Shown here one piece after another: positions 28,548-55,902 of a stretch of 64,000 bases of DNA; positions within the stretch are counted from its first letter, which is position 1; each line of letters starts with the position of its first letter. Under the pieces are notes generated by a model. The model was not told where the DNA came from. It worked only from the letters and a program-made list of their open reading frames with translations, and did no database searches. The DNA is from Pseudomonadota bacterium (lineage in GTDB: Bacteria; Pseudomonadota; Gammaproteobacteria; QQUJ01), in the NCBI GenBank assembly GCA_008501635.1, contig QQUJ01000010.1, positions 558,001 through 622,000 of the forward strand. The letters run 5' to 3'. A program made the translations under genes and the position numbers.

Positions 28548-29390
28548 GTGTCGTTCTCCGCTCGGTGGCCGGCCCCGGCCAAGCTCAATCTGATGCTGCA
28601 TGTTACGGGGCGGCGTACCGATGGTTACCATGAGTTGCAGACCGTATTTCAGTTCCTCGATTTTGGTGACTCTCTAACCTTTACGCTGCGCGAAGATGAA
28701 CAGGTGCGCAGGGTCTCTGAAATCGGTGCTGTTCCCGCCGCCCAGGATCTCGTTGTTCGCGCCGCACGACTACTGCAGGCCCAGACCGGGTATCGATGCG
28801 GTGTGGACATCGCCATTGAAAAGCGCATTCCGATGGGGGGCGGGTTGGGCGGGGGCAGCTCGGACGCTGCGACCACCCTGGTGGCTTTGAACACGCTCTG
28901 GAAGCTGGGGCTTGGAGTTGACGCGTTGGCCCGATTGGGCCTGCAACTTGGGGCGGATGTCCCCGTCTTTGTGCGGGGGTCTGCCGCCTGGGCGGAAGGT
29001 GTTGGCGATCAGCTGCAAGTCATTGATCTGCCTGAACCTTGGTATTTGGTGATTTCTCCTGATTGTTCCGTGTCTACCGCTGCTGTTTTCGCGGATCCAG
29101 AATTGACACGGGATACGGTGCCAATCAAAATAGCCGACTTTCTTTCGGCCGGCGGCCGGAACGACTGTGAGGCAGTCGTTCGCGCCCGTTACCCGGCGGT
29201 GGCCGCGGCGCTGGATTGGCTCGATCAATACGCGGTAGCGCGGCTCACAGGGACGGGCAGCAGTGTCTTTGCCTCATTCGCCGACAAGCGCTCAGCCGCA
29301 GACCTGCTGGCGCATCTGCCACCGGCCTGGCAGGGTTTCGTCGCCAAAGGCTGTAATCGATCGGCGTTGCTGGACCGGTTGGCGGGCTAG
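28548..29390 (+). CDS. ispE: 4-diphosphocytidyl-2-C-methyl-D-erythritol kinase
   Basis: IspE phosphorylates CDP-methylerythritol in the MEP isoprenoid pathway. From a GTG at 28548 (SFSARWPAPAKLNLMLHVTG) it has 280 residues. The GHMP-kinase ATP loop PMGGGLGGGSSDAATTL and the C-terminal LTGTGSSVFASF are present. The upstream open frame to 28494 overlaps lolB and lacks homology. It stands 4 bp after lolB. Confidence 0.97.
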   Translation: MSFSARWPAPAKLNLMLHVTGRRTDGYHELQTVFQFLDFGDSLTFTLREDEQVRRVSEIGAVPAAQDLVVRAARLLQAQTGYRCGVDIAIEKRIPMGGGLGGGSSDAATTLVALNTLWKLGLGVDALARLGLQLGADVPVFVRGSAAWAEGVGDQLQVIDLPEPWYLVISPDCSVSTAAVFADPELTRDTVPIKIADFLSAGGRNDCEAVVRARYPAVAAALDWLDQYAVARLTGTGSSVFASFADKRSAADLLAHLPPAWQGFVAKGCNRSALLDRLAG

Positions 29391-29403
29391 CGACTCGCCT
29401 GGG

Positions 29404-29457
29404 CGCTGCGACGCTGGCCCCGCAGGGGCGAGGGCCGAAGGCCCGAGTAATCCTGGC
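29404..29457 (+). repeat. Partial core of the tRNA-linked repeat, upstream of tRNA-Gln
   Basis: Positions 29408-29457 closely match the right-hand core of the unit downstream of tRNA-Gln (GCGACGCTGGCCCCGCAGGG, then GAGGGCC, and TAATCCTGGC at the end). Only nine bases of the Gln-type tail (AATCCTGGC) remain before the sequence diverges. No tRNA lies immediately upstream, so this may be a relic of an older tandem copy. Confidence 0.75.
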
Positions 29458-29499
29458 CGGTCATGTCATGCCGGGGCAGGATCGAGAGGGAGGTTCAGT

Positions 29500-29574
29500 T
29501 GGGGTGTAGCCAAGCGGTAAGGCACTGGTTTTTGGTACCAGCATTCCCAGGTTCGAATCCTGGCACCCCAGCCA
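29500..29574 (+). tRNA. tRNA-Gln (TTG)
   Basis: A full cloverleaf of 75 nt can be drawn. The acceptor stem TGGGGTG pairs with CACCCCA, the anticodon stem CTGGT/ACCAG encloses the loop TTTTGGT with anticodon TTG, and the T-arm is CCAGG-TTCGAAT-CCTGG. The CCA end is encoded. It lies between ispE and prs, a frequent tRNA-Gln position in gammaproteobacteria. Confidence 0.97.
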
Positions 29575-29760
29575 AATTTAGTGATCACCGCCAGAAACGG
29601 CAAGGTTGATTCAGGCGGTGAGGTTGATTGGTGCCAGGGTTTGAACCGTGAAGGTTCGACAAGCCGCCGCGCAGCGGTGGCGAAGAACAGCGACGCGAAA
29701 GCGACGCTGGCCCCGCAGGGGTGAGGGCCACAGGTCCGAATAATCCTGGCACCCCAGCCA
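29556..29760 (+). repeat. tRNA-linked 186-bp repeat unit with duplicated tRNA-Gln 3' end
   Basis: The last 19 nt of tRNA-Gln (29556-29574) occur again exactly at 29742-29760, 186 bp downstream. At 29630-29647 lies an inverted copy of the T-arm and acceptor strand (16 of 18 positions match). The segment 29653-29741 is a GC-rich core shared with the Tyr locus (GCGAAGAACAGCG, AGCGACGCTGGCCC). The unit has no coding character. It ends 79 bp before prs and may be transcribed from the tRNA promoter. Confidence 0.85.
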
Positions 29761-29839: not shown

Positions 29840-30793
29840 GTGCCTGAATCGTCGATGATGGTTTTCTCCGGTAACGCCAATCCCGATCTGGCGCGCGCGG
29901 TTACCAGCCACCTTAATCTGCCCCTGGGCAAGGGGGTGGTCAGCCGGTTCAGTGACGGCGAGATCATGGTCGAGATCATGGAGAGTGTGCGTGGCCAGGA
30001 TGTGTTTATCATTCAACCCACCTGTGCGCCGACCAATGACAACCTGATGGAACTGCTGTTGATGGCGGATGCGGCGCGCCGCGCATCGGCCTCGCGGTTG
30101 ACGGCGGTGATCCCCTATCTCGGCTATTCGCGCCAGGACCGGCGGCCACGCTCGGTAAAGGTGCCGATCTCGGCAAAAATGGTTGCCAACATGATCTGCA
30201 GGGTGGGTTTCGACAGGGTGTTGACGGTGGATTTGCACTCCGACCAGATCCAGGGGTTTTTCGATATACCCGTGGACAACGTCTACTCATCCCCCATTCT
30301 GTTGGGCGATATCTGGCGTCAGAAGCACCCGAATTTGATCGTGGTTTCGCCGGATGTGGGTGGTGTGGTGCGCGCCCGGGCGATCGCCAAGCGCCTCGAT
30401 GATGCCGATCTGGCCATCATCGACAAACGTCGTCCGCGTGCCAACGAGTCTGAGATTATGCACATCATCGGCGATGTGAAAGGTCGCAGCTGCGTGATCG
30501 TGGACGACCTGGTCGATACTGCGGGTACGCTGTGCAACGCCGCCAAGGCCTTGAAAGAGCGCGGCGCATTGAAAGTGGTGGCGTACTGTACGCACCCGGT
30601 ACTGTCGGGCAAGGCGATCTCCAATATCGAAAACTCGGTGCTGGATGAGCTGGTGGTGACCGATACCATCCCGTTGCAGGGTGCTGCGCATGAGTGCCCC
30701 CGCATTCGTCAGTTGAGCATCGCCGGAATGCTGGCCGAGACCATACGCCGCATCTCGCAAGACGAATCGGTCAGTTCGATGTATATGGATTAA
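29840..30793 (+). CDS. prs: Ribose-phosphate pyrophosphokinase
   Basis: Prs makes PRPP from ribose-5-phosphate and ATP for nucleotide, histidine and tryptophan synthesis. The 317-residue protein has the family parts [40 protein letters not shown] and the PRPP loop [17 protein letters not shown]. The start is a GTG at 29840 behind GGGGA; an ATG five codons in is possible. It leads the prs-rplY-pth group. Confidence 0.97.
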
Positions 30794-37248: not shown

Positions 37249-37333
37249 GGAGGGGTTCCCGAGCGGTCAAAGGGATCAGACTGTAAATCTGACGGCTCAG
37301 CCTTCGGAGGTTCGAATCCTCCCCCCTCCACCA
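37249..37333 (+). tRNA. tRNA-Tyr (GTA)
   Basis: An 85-nt class II tRNA: acceptor GGAGGGG with CCCCTCC, anticodon stem TCAGA/TCTGA with loop CTGTAAA (anticodon GTA), a variable arm and the T-arm GGAGG-TTCGAAT-CCTCC. The CCA end is encoded. It is first of the tRNA-Tyr/Gly/Thr/tuf/Trp cluster. Confidence 0.97.
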
Positions 37334-37645
37334 AGTAGCGGGTACGGCCGTGTGTAATTCCGGCATTGAGCTTCGGATCGCCCTCCCCGGGGGAGGATGA
37401 GAACCGAGCAGAGGTTTGACGAGCCGACGCGTAGCGGCGGCGAAGAACAGCGGAGCGCAGCGACGCTGGCCCGGAGGGCGGAAGGCCAAAGGCCTGGAGT
37501 AATCCTCCCCCCTCCACCAAGTAGCGGGCACGGCCGTGTGTAATTCCGGCATTGAGCTTCGGATCGCCCTCCCCGGGGGAGGATGAGAGCCGAGCAGAGG
37601 TTTGACGAGCCGGCGCGCAGCGACGCTTGCCCGGAGGGCGGATAT
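37315..37645 (+). repeat. Tandem tRNA-linked repeat with duplicated tRNA-Tyr 3' end
   Basis: The last 19 nt of tRNA-Tyr (37315-37333) recur exactly at 37501-37519, a 186-bp period. Unit 1 (37315-37500) carries an inverted copy of the T-arm/acceptor strand at 37389-37405 (15 of 17 match) and a GC-rich core from 37413 that resembles the unit after tRNA-Gln. Unit 2 begins at 37501, repeats unit 1 closely for about 110 bp, then lacks roughly 26 bp of the core and fades near 37645. The remaining bases to tRNA-Gly at 37743 show no feature. Confidence 0.88.
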
Positions 37646-37742
37646 CCCCTCTCGACCGTTGATGAGTCTAGCAGGTGCTGAATTGGTAAGTCTGCGGCAA
37701 GGTCCGAGGTGGCTGATCCCGCAATAATTTTAGGTTGGCTGT

Positions 37743-38087: not shown

Positions 38088-39278
38088 ATGTCCAAAGGAA
38101 AATTCGAACGTAAGAAGCCGCATGTGAATGTGGGGACGATAGGTCACGTAGACCATGGTAAGACGACGCTGACGGCGGCGATTACCAAGGTGATGGCGGA
38201 GACGCACGGCGGCGAGTTCAAGGCGTTTGACCAGATTGACAACGCCCCGGAAGAGCGGGCACGCGGGATCACGATTGCGACGGCCCACGTGGAGTACGAA
38301 TCGACCGCGCGTCACTACGCGCACGTTGACTGTCCGGGGCACGCGGACTACGTGAAGAACATGATCACGGGTGCGGCGCAGATGGACGGAGCGATTTTGG
38401 TGTGTTCGGCCGCGGATGGTCCGATGCCGCAGACGCGCGAGCACATTCTGCTGGCCCGTCAGGTGGGCGTACCCTACATCGTGGTGTTTTTGAACAAGGC
38501 CGACATGGTTGACGATGCCGAGTTGCTGGAGCTGGTGGAGATGGAAGTGCGTGATCTGCTCTCGAGCTACGATTTTCCGGGTGACGACACCCCGATCATC
38601 ACCGGTTCGGCGCTCAAGGCGCTGGAGGGTGACGCGAGCGAGATCGGCGCCCCGTCGATCATCAAGCTGGTCGAGGCGATGGACTCCTACATACCGGAGC
38701 CGCAGCGCGAGGTTGAGAAGCCGTTCCTGATGCCGATCGAGGATGTGTTCTCGATCTCGGGTCGCGGCACGGTGGTGACCGGGCGCGTCGAGCGCGGGGT
38801 GGTGAAGGTTGGCGAGGAGGTTGAGATTGTCGGCATCCGCGACACCACCAAGACCATCGTCACCGGGGTGGAGATGTTTCGCAAGCTGCTCGATCAGGGG
38901 CAGGCGGGCGACAACGTGGGCGTGCTGCTGCGCGGGACCAAGCGCGACGATGTGGAGCGCGGGCAGGTGCTGTGCAAGCCCGGATCGATCACCCCGCACA
39001 CCAAGTTTGAGGCCGAAGTCTACATTCTGTCGAAGGAGGAGGGTGGTCGTCACACGCCGTTCTTCAACGGCTACCGTCCGCAGTTTTATTTTCGCACGAC
39101 CGACGTGACCGGTGCCTGTGATCTGCCCGAGGGGGTGGAGATGGTGATGCCGGGGGACAACGTGAAGATGACGGTGTCGCTGATCGCGCCGATTGCGATG
39201 GAGGACGGACTACGTTTTGCGATTCGCGAAGGTGGCCGAACGGTCGGCGCCGGCGTCGTCGCTAAGATTATCGAGTAA
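38088..39278 (+). CDS. tufB: Elongation factor Tu, copy 1
   Basis: EF-Tu brings aminoacyl-tRNA to the ribosome. The 396-residue protein has the GTP motifs [27 protein letters not shown] and NKADMVDD, followed by the two beta domains. It starts at ATG. The protein equals copy 2 at 54712, and the DNA appears identical from the second base of the start codon to the stop. Position after tRNA-Thr and before tRNA-Trp-secE matches the tufB locus of E. coli. Confidence 0.98.
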
Positions 39279-54711: not shown

Positions 54712-55902
54712 GTGTCCAAAGGAAAATTCGAACGTAAGAAGCCGCATGTGAATGTGGGGACGATAGGTCACGTAGACCATGGTAAGACGACGCTGACGGC
54801 GGCGATTACCAAGGTGATGGCGGAGACGCACGGCGGCGAGTTCAAGGCGTTTGACCAGATTGACAACGCCCCGGAAGAGCGGGCACGCGGGATCACGATT
54901 GCGACGGCCCACGTGGAGTACGAATCGACCGCGCGTCACTACGCGCACGTTGACTGTCCGGGGCACGCGGACTACGTGAAGAACATGATCACGGGTGCGG
55001 CGCAGATGGACGGAGCGATTTTGGTGTGTTCGGCCGCGGATGGTCCGATGCCGCAGACGCGCGAGCACATTCTGCTGGCCCGTCAGGTGGGCGTACCCTA
55101 CATCGTGGTGTTTTTGAACAAGGCCGACATGGTTGACGATGCCGAGTTGCTGGAGCTGGTGGAGATGGAAGTGCGTGATCTGCTCTCGAGCTACGATTTT
55201 CCGGGTGACGACACCCCGATCATCACCGGTTCGGCGCTCAAGGCGCTGGAGGGTGACGCGAGCGAGATCGGCGCCCCGTCGATCATCAAGCTGGTCGAGG
55301 CGATGGACTCCTACATACCGGAGCCGCAGCGCGAGGTTGAGAAGCCGTTCCTGATGCCGATCGAGGATGTGTTCTCGATCTCGGGTCGCGGCACGGTGGT
55401 GACCGGGCGCGTCGAGCGCGGGGTGGTGAAGGTTGGCGAGGAGGTTGAGATTGTCGGCATCCGCGACACCACCAAGACCATCGTCACCGGGGTGGAGATG
55501 TTTCGCAAGCTGCTCGATCAGGGGCAGGCGGGCGACAACGTGGGCGTGCTGCTGCGCGGGACCAAGCGCGACGATGTGGAGCGCGGGCAGGTGCTGTGCA
55601 AGCCCGGATCGATCACCCCGCACACCAAGTTTGAGGCCGAAGTCTACATTCTGTCGAAGGAGGAGGGTGGTCGTCACACGCCGTTCTTCAACGGCTACCG
55701 TCCGCAGTTTTATTTTCGCACGACCGACGTGACCGGTGCCTGTGATCTGCCCGAGGGGGTGGAGATGGTGATGCCGGGGGACAACGTGAAGATGACGGTG
55801 TCGCTGATCGCGCCGATTGCGATGGAGGACGGACTACGTTTTGCGATTCGCGAAGGTGGCCGAACGGTCGGCGCCGGCGTCGTCGCTAAGATTATCGAGT
55901 AA
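54712..55902 (+). CDS. tufA: Elongation factor Tu, copy 2
   Basis: This copy encodes the same 396 residues as the gene at 38088 and starts with GTG instead of ATG. All DNA stretches compared are identical, including third codon positions; the shared tract ends at the start codon on one side and the stop codon on the other. It is last of the str operon and only 5 bp from rpsJ, so str and S10 operons are probably transcribed together. Confidence 0.98.

Follow-up and report, generated by a model that had tools for sequence, protein, structure and literature searches.

An RtT-type unit behind tRNA-Gln in a gammaproteobacterium is probably an extra tRNA 3' end carrying a structured core in its T-loop

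RtT repeats are known from Escherichia coli, where they follow tRNA-Tyr and are represented in Rfam by the RtT/rttR family of tyrTV (RF00391). In strain K-12 the repeats, each 178 bp long, follow tyrV; their tails (ATCCTTCCCCCACCACCA) stand at +160, +338 and +516, and they have an antisense strand (GCGGGGAAGGAT). The first of these repeats is labelled rttR in RefSeq. A fourth RtT copy (L222) fills the tyrT-tyrV spacer and is absent from the RefSeq annotation. PMC4986893 relates second-hand that in E. coli an RNA of approximately 171 nt is reported to be excised from the transcript of the tRNA and to influence the stringent response. The paper itself assigns two Northern-positive sRNAs of Actinobacillus pleuropneumoniae, Arrc20 and Arrc21, to the RtT family and places them beside tRNA genes. 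RtT-like elements have also been reported in enterobacterial attenuator clusters, and rtT shows similarity to BIME-embedded elements (PMC2965389). Our literature searches found no account of a wider RtT-type family. REP/BIME elements are, like RtT, short, hairpin-rich and non-coding, but RtT units differ from them in being linked to tRNA genes, in having host-specific tails and in not being dispersed in the genome studied here. A second comparison is with tRNA-targeting integrative elements that use a tyrosine recombinase, which share with RtT units a direct repeat of the tRNA 3' end and a junction in the T-loop. RtT units have no recombinase, are under 200 bp, show covariation of the kind expected of RNA and occupy other insertion sites too.

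The stretch of DNA analysed here (the window, 64,000 nt) contains a 186-bp unit within the gene order lolB-ispE-tRNA-Gln-unit-prs (Table 1). The original prediction described this unit as a copy of the tRNA's own 3' end in both orientations, and every coordinate it gave was borne out on re-check. The 3'-terminal 19 nt of tRNA-Gln (AATCCTGGCACCCCAGCCA) recur exactly, with a period that runs from T-loop position 58 of the tRNA (29556) to the equivalent position of the tail (29742). Compared with the reverse complement of the T-arm and acceptor strand, the antisense strand agrees in 16 of its 18 positions, and G:U pairing can accommodate both mismatches; the closing stem predicted to enclose about 120 nt spans 124 nt. 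Comparison within the window sequence confirmed that the GC-rich core is common to the unit after tRNA-Tyr. The linker stem occupies the place held by a terminator behind other tRNAs. Upstream of the tRNA, a truncated core copy lies directly 3' of the ispE stop and ends in the first letters of the tRNA-Gln tail; this copy, which the original prediction does not mention, is probably what is left of a second, interrupted tRNA that once lay upstream. Elsewhere in the window, two stretches of 300 nt (38089-38388 and 54713-55012) are 100% identical and form the starts of two EF-Tu-like (tuf) genes, of which two copies are common in Gammaproteobacteria.

Table 1. Features of the unit and its surroundings (window positions), and core-interrupted tRNA copies found at other loci. 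R1 is the covariance model described in the text.
Feature	Position	Strand	Evidence or remark
R1 match over truncated upstream core copy	29314-29468	+	39.6 bits
Truncated upstream core copy; remnant of the tail, ATCCTGGC, at 29450-29457	29404-29457	+	90% over 50 nt to 29701-29750
tRNA-Gln(TTG), host gene	29500-29574	+	ARAGORN; Rfam RF00005, 65.4 bits
Linker stem CACCGCC...GGCGGTG, without T-run	29586-29620	+	sequence; no terminator found
Whole RtT-type unit as matched	29618-29760	+	RF00391, 35.8 bits; R1, 97.5 bits
Antisense strand, GGTGCCAGGGTTTGAACC	29630-29647	+	pairs with tail (P1 5' strand 29630-29640) and with 29653-29659 (P2 5' strand)
GGTTCGA: T-arm 5' motif, P2 3' strand, left flank of insert	29653-29659	+	
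Core insert, 83 nt, between GGTTCGA and ATCC	29660-29742	+	fold; covariation
Core hairpins P3, P4, P5, P6	29663-29681, 29688-29709, 29710-29722, 29725-29737	+	fold; covariation
Tail, exact copy of last 19 nt of tRNA-Gln (P1 3' strand 29743-29753)	29742-29760	+	
prs (ribose-phosphate pyrophosphokinase), next gene downstream	29840-30793	+	Pfam
tRNA-Tyr(GTA), second host gene in window	37249-37333	+	ARAGORN
Complete RtT-type unit after tRNA-Tyr, tail 37501-37519	37334-37519	+	RF00391, 40.2 bits; R1, 88.1 bits
Second, truncated unit after tRNA-Tyr	37520-37661	+	96% repeat; R1, 19.4 bits
Core-interrupted tRNA copies: Ser-GGA (L164, L367), Gln-TTG (L284), Ser-TGA (L299), Arg-CCT (L300)			
Core-interrupted tRNA copies: Ser-GCT (L315), Arg-CCG (L348), Ser-CGA (L361)			

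The original prediction knew of no named family with this design; one exists, the RtT/rttR family introduced above, and the window unit is a divergent RtT-type unit, an ordinary member notable for what it reveals of the family. The gathering score of RF00391 is 45 and the window was searched at a relaxed threshold; its Gln-TTG unit and its complete Tyr unit scored below the cut-off; the sister unit after Gln-CTG in the same genome exceeded it (45.6 bits), the Ser-GGA units of that genome gave 31-32 bits, and units of other genomes 50.9-58.4 bits. Moreover, we derived a covariance model (R1) from 26 units of the window genome and other genomes, with E. coli left out; it scored the four E. coli rttR copies at 77.1-82.3 bits, against 97.5 for the window unit. 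Both the E. coli repeat and the window unit follow a tRNA and end in that tRNA's 3' tail through CCA (19/19 nt in the window), with an antisense strand that pairs with the tail around a multi-hairpin core of identical hairpin order, and the motifs GGTTCGA and GAGTAATCC are shared. Tandem copies occur in both; the window genome has two after Tyr and three after Ser-GGA. The differences lie in length (186 bp here, 178 bp in E. coli), in the score below the Rfam cut-off and in the hosts, which here include Gln, Ser, Tyr, Arg, Glu, Pro, Val and other tRNAs, with tail and antisense matched to each, unlike the Tyr-only description from E. coli. Matches to sX4 (RF02223) over the tRNA and its trailer were weak and all under the cut-off, and this family was rejected.

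R1 copies (E<=1e-4) were found in 161 of 369 genomes of Gammaproteobacteria, representing 127 of 272 genera. A sample of the phylum searched at 1e-8 gave copies in 73/399 genomes; 40 of these lie outside Gammaproteobacteria and nearly all belong to one family, probably Mariprofundaceae, since Mariprofundus turns up in the scan of named genomes. Named hosts include Thioalkalivibrio, Idiomarina, Rheinheimera, Marinobacter, Microbulbifer, Salinisphaera, Lysobacter, Luteimonas, Serratia, Pantoea, Citrobacter and Escherichia albertii. The window genome itself has 13 R1 matches, among them Ser-GGA (three and a truncated one), Gln-TTG, Gln-CTG, Tyr (two), Ser-TGA, Arg-ACG, Phe and one orphan. Decayed pieces were also seen at Pro-GGG, Ser-GCT and Ser-CGA. 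An orphan core-like array in this genome (L265, C10:409630-409749, minus strand; R1, 29.1 bits) adjoins no tRNA, and a tandem array of three RtT units at another locus (L364) has no tRNA detectable in the ~1.7 kb searched upstream. Carriage by phages was rejected, as 2.9 million viral contigs gave only three matches to the core pattern, two on contigs without a tRNA and the third with tRNAs more than 3 kb away.

Tail and antisense strand both follow the host tRNA. We compared 92 first units, from the window genome and other genomes, whose hosts were tRNAs for Gln, Ser, Tyr, Glu, Arg, Pro or Val. In these the last 18 nt agreed with their own tRNA at 17.1/18 positions and with tRNAs of other isotypes at 10.8 ± 0.13, and 71 of the 92 tails were perfect. 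When only the 11 variable nt of the tail were counted, the values were 10.5 for the own tRNA and 5.0 for another isotype; the best 16-nt window of the antisense strand gave 13.9 and 11.5, respectively. An independent scan by core pattern alone, with no use of the tail, found a same-strand tRNA within 700 nt upstream of 91/130 cores (within 150 nt for 76), and 64 of these 91 tRNA-linked copies had a tail of at least 16/18, against 0% of controls; some core copies lay far from any detectable tRNA. The original prediction was to fail if cores had no tie to tRNA genes or carried tails foreign to their neighbour; it passed, as core copies do keep to tRNA genes and end in the tail of the one beside them, and the isotype-swap control rules out chance or low complexity. 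The antisense strand takes two forms. After Gln, Tyr, Pro and Glu it covers the acceptor and T-stem 3' strand and pairs with the tail, whereas after Ser and Arg it is shifted to the T-loop, the 5' T-stem and the variable arm. As a consequence of this shift P1 is only 4-5 bp there, and tail pairing cannot account for all of the antisense identity.

Single units folded as a junction of helices P1-P6, and the window unit alone folds at -80 kcal/mol. As had been proposed, the antisense strand can pair with either the tRNA 3' half or the tail, and these two pairings compete in the fold of the window transcript; the MFE fold of the whole transcript favours antisense:tRNA over antisense:tail. In a model-fitted alignment of 129 distinct units, 90.1% of pair cells held standard pairs (70.6% when shuffled), covariation was 0.470 (0.151 when shuffled), and both sides changed in 32 of 38 pairs. 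Shifting the partner by one column lowered the covariation score to 0.05. Because this alignment is fitted to the model, the unfitted first MAFFT alignment provides the fairer test, and it gave 0.297 (0.130 when shuffled). RNAalifold recovered only P2 and P5 from the MAFFT alignment, the remaining helices being assigned by hand and then confirmed by counts. G:U cells outnumbered A:C cells (189 vs 86), which favours an RNA read in the direction of the tRNA. At the level of sequence, covariation strongly supports a six-helix RNA closed by antisense:tail pairing. The earlier suggestion of a transcribed RNA that would mimic a tRNA tail fits this part of the evidence. Mimicry of the whole top half of a tRNA was rejected: P1 ranges from 4-5 to more than 15 bp among units, so no fixed minihelix is conserved.

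We consider it likely that the RtT-type repeat is an extra tRNA-Gln 3' end with a structured core of 72-83 nt in its T-loop, preceded by an antisense strand and read as RNA in the direction of the tRNA. The core would have inserted between T-loop positions 58 and 59 of the extra copy, and the antisense strand ahead of it is the complement of that end of the tRNA. The RNA, read with tRNA-Gln and prs, would close into the junction through P1 (antisense:tail), P2 (GAACC:GGTTC) and the core helices P3-P6. Units would be gained and lost by recombination through the 18-nt direct repeat, leaving the tRNA intact, and the core would pass from one tRNA locus to another by inserting into hairpin loops. 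The tail may stay identical because P1 must pair and because recombination passes through the 18-nt repeat.

Similarity continued beyond CCA (at least 90% over the next 30 nt) in 34/80 units, indicating that the tail began within a longer duplication. The 29 units whose next 30 nt had diverged to background nevertheless retained tails that are 98% identical, 23 of them perfect, and such tails point to upkeep by pairing or by recombination. In E. coli K-12 one unit separates tyrT from tyrV, and precisely this unit is missing from strain MS15236; the junction there falls at CCA and is followed by an identical TCTCAAGCATTACCT spacer, with the tRNA intact. This difference is consistent with recombination through the tail. 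Among 5426 E. coli genomes none was detected in 715, and matching genomes had 1-14 places each. Plain tandem duplication, whereby unequal crossing-over by the tRNA multiplies the segment from T-loop to core as neutral DNA and the tail is identical simply because the duplication is recent, would agree with this variation in array copy number and with the inclusion of post-tRNA sequence in 34 units. We think it unlikely, as exact tails persist beside background-level flanks, the same 58/59 junction recurs after many tRNA types, and the strong RNA covariation already weakens it.

In the preferred reading, the tail is what lies beyond an inserted core. In the usual units the core sits precisely between positions 58 and 59 (GGTTCGA^core^ATCC). 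Upstream copies of tRNAs are also interrupted by it (Table 1), and excising the core from these restores a tRNA that is exact to the base at 58/59, the right-hand boundary being uncertain by 0-3 letters in a few of them. Ten interrupted copies were examined, and in eight of them an intact copy of that isoacceptor follows 33-116 bp downstream. In L164, L299, L300, L348 and L367 the 5' parts are identical to those of the intact copy; the counts for these five are 59/59, 59/59, 70/70, 72/72 and 73/73. Interrupted copies have degenerate 3' ends. Set beside a group I/II intron, which has a catalytic core and is spliced from the tRNA, the insert is just 72-83 nt long. Arrc20 and Arrc21, which the sections of PMC4986893 on them place upstream of Asn and Lys tRNA genes, unlike the window unit, and describe without tails or insertion boundaries, may correspond to such upstream copies. 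One locus (L351:180-380) is a chimera with the 5' part of a Gln tRNA, then the core, then a Ser-type tail.

Other loops also hold the core. D-loop insertions in three families (L092, L167, L408/L414) place it after GGCTGA in a truncated tRNA-Ser(GCT) copy directly upstream of the intact Ser-GCT gene. The P3 loop of the Gln-CTG unit in genome G227 houses a complete nested core (CAAAATTGTTTGGA^ACAATTTTG). Its orthologue in G326 reads straight through as CAAAATTGTTTGGAACAATTTTG, an empty site; this filled/empty pair is the single clean one of its kind. The Arg-CCG unit of G326 holds a nested core 90% identical to that of G227. In genus g111, loci L253 and L256 have cores within the P3 loops of other RtT units, and L254 has an orthologous empty site. 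Dispersed copies of the nested core numbered one each in G227 and G326 and none in G110, so this single-copy state speaks against a burst. In G014 the Gln and Val cores are 95% identical and their tails unrelated, and over all pairs core identity is only slightly higher within than between genomes (0.73 vs 0.68). The left junctions of the listed inserts all read GA^C, and the next base in the empty site is A, once G.

The placement of the core exactly at 58/59, and also in near-complete tRNA copies, in the D-loop and in the loop of a unit, indicates that the tail is the remainder of an interrupted tRNA end. What is new is that the RtT core behaves as a discrete insert with exact boundaries. 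The idea of a small mobile unit that restores the tRNA end is partly supported, in that the core is discrete and that one-unit gain or loss leaves the tRNA intact with a junction at CCA, but it is more fitting to see in the tail the 3' part left over from a core-interrupted extra tRNA copy than an end made to restore the tRNA. The core may be mobile, although clean filled/empty pairs are few; we found no recombinase or other mobility protein linked to the units. We put forward only tentatively that it is a mobile element of an unrecognised kind, with GA^A (or GA^G) as its target in hairpin loops (chiefly T- and D-loops of tRNA gene copies and loops of its kin), preserved as a folded RNA, spreading between tRNA loci and taking up the local tail and antisense.

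The T-loop is one crossover class of tRNA-targeting tyrosine-recombinase integrases. A non-autonomous element of this type, with the tail as attR at the T-loop crossover and the antisense and core as its minimal body, would account for the T-loop junction, the attR-like tail, the tRNA end repeated in direct orientation on either side and the exact one-unit difference between two E. coli strains. It is nonetheless improbable: there is no integrase in or near the window units (the 186-bp unit has no ORF of integrase size and its neighbours are ispE and prs), terminators are duplicated along with the tail, the D-loop and P3-loop sites share no long identity with the T-loop, and pairing rather than sequence is conserved.

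Lastly, the transcription context of the units was considered. None of 19 Gln-TTG units has a terminator between tRNA and unit, and in at least 11 of them prs lies within 200 nt downstream, several others having too little flank. No promoter or terminator was detected between the genes of the lolB-ispE-tRNA-Gln-unit-prs stretch. Given the missing terminator and the nearby prs, the window unit probably belongs to the tRNA-Gln-prs transcript, and sequence context makes co-transcription with both the most likely arrangement. Terminator function was rejected; the window unit contains neither terminator nor promoter, and at other loci the terminators stand apart from the unit. A role as cis-regulatory leader or attenuator, in which pairing of the antisense with the T-arm or the tail switches tRNA maturation or prs expression, would suit the two competing pairings, the position ahead of prs and the RtT-like elements reported in attenuator clusters of enterobacteria, but it has little chance of being correct, because 12/13 Gln-CTG units lie behind a terminator, which makes a common cis role unlikely, and many units have no gene just downstream and share no regulon.

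RtT, formerly a little-noticed side product of a single tRNA operon in E. coli, is now a class-wide family associated with many tRNA types. If the core is mobile, it would be among the smallest known structured elements that target tRNA loops. The exact insertion boundaries, the filled and empty loci and the copy-number polymorphism in E. coli make the role of RtT testable.
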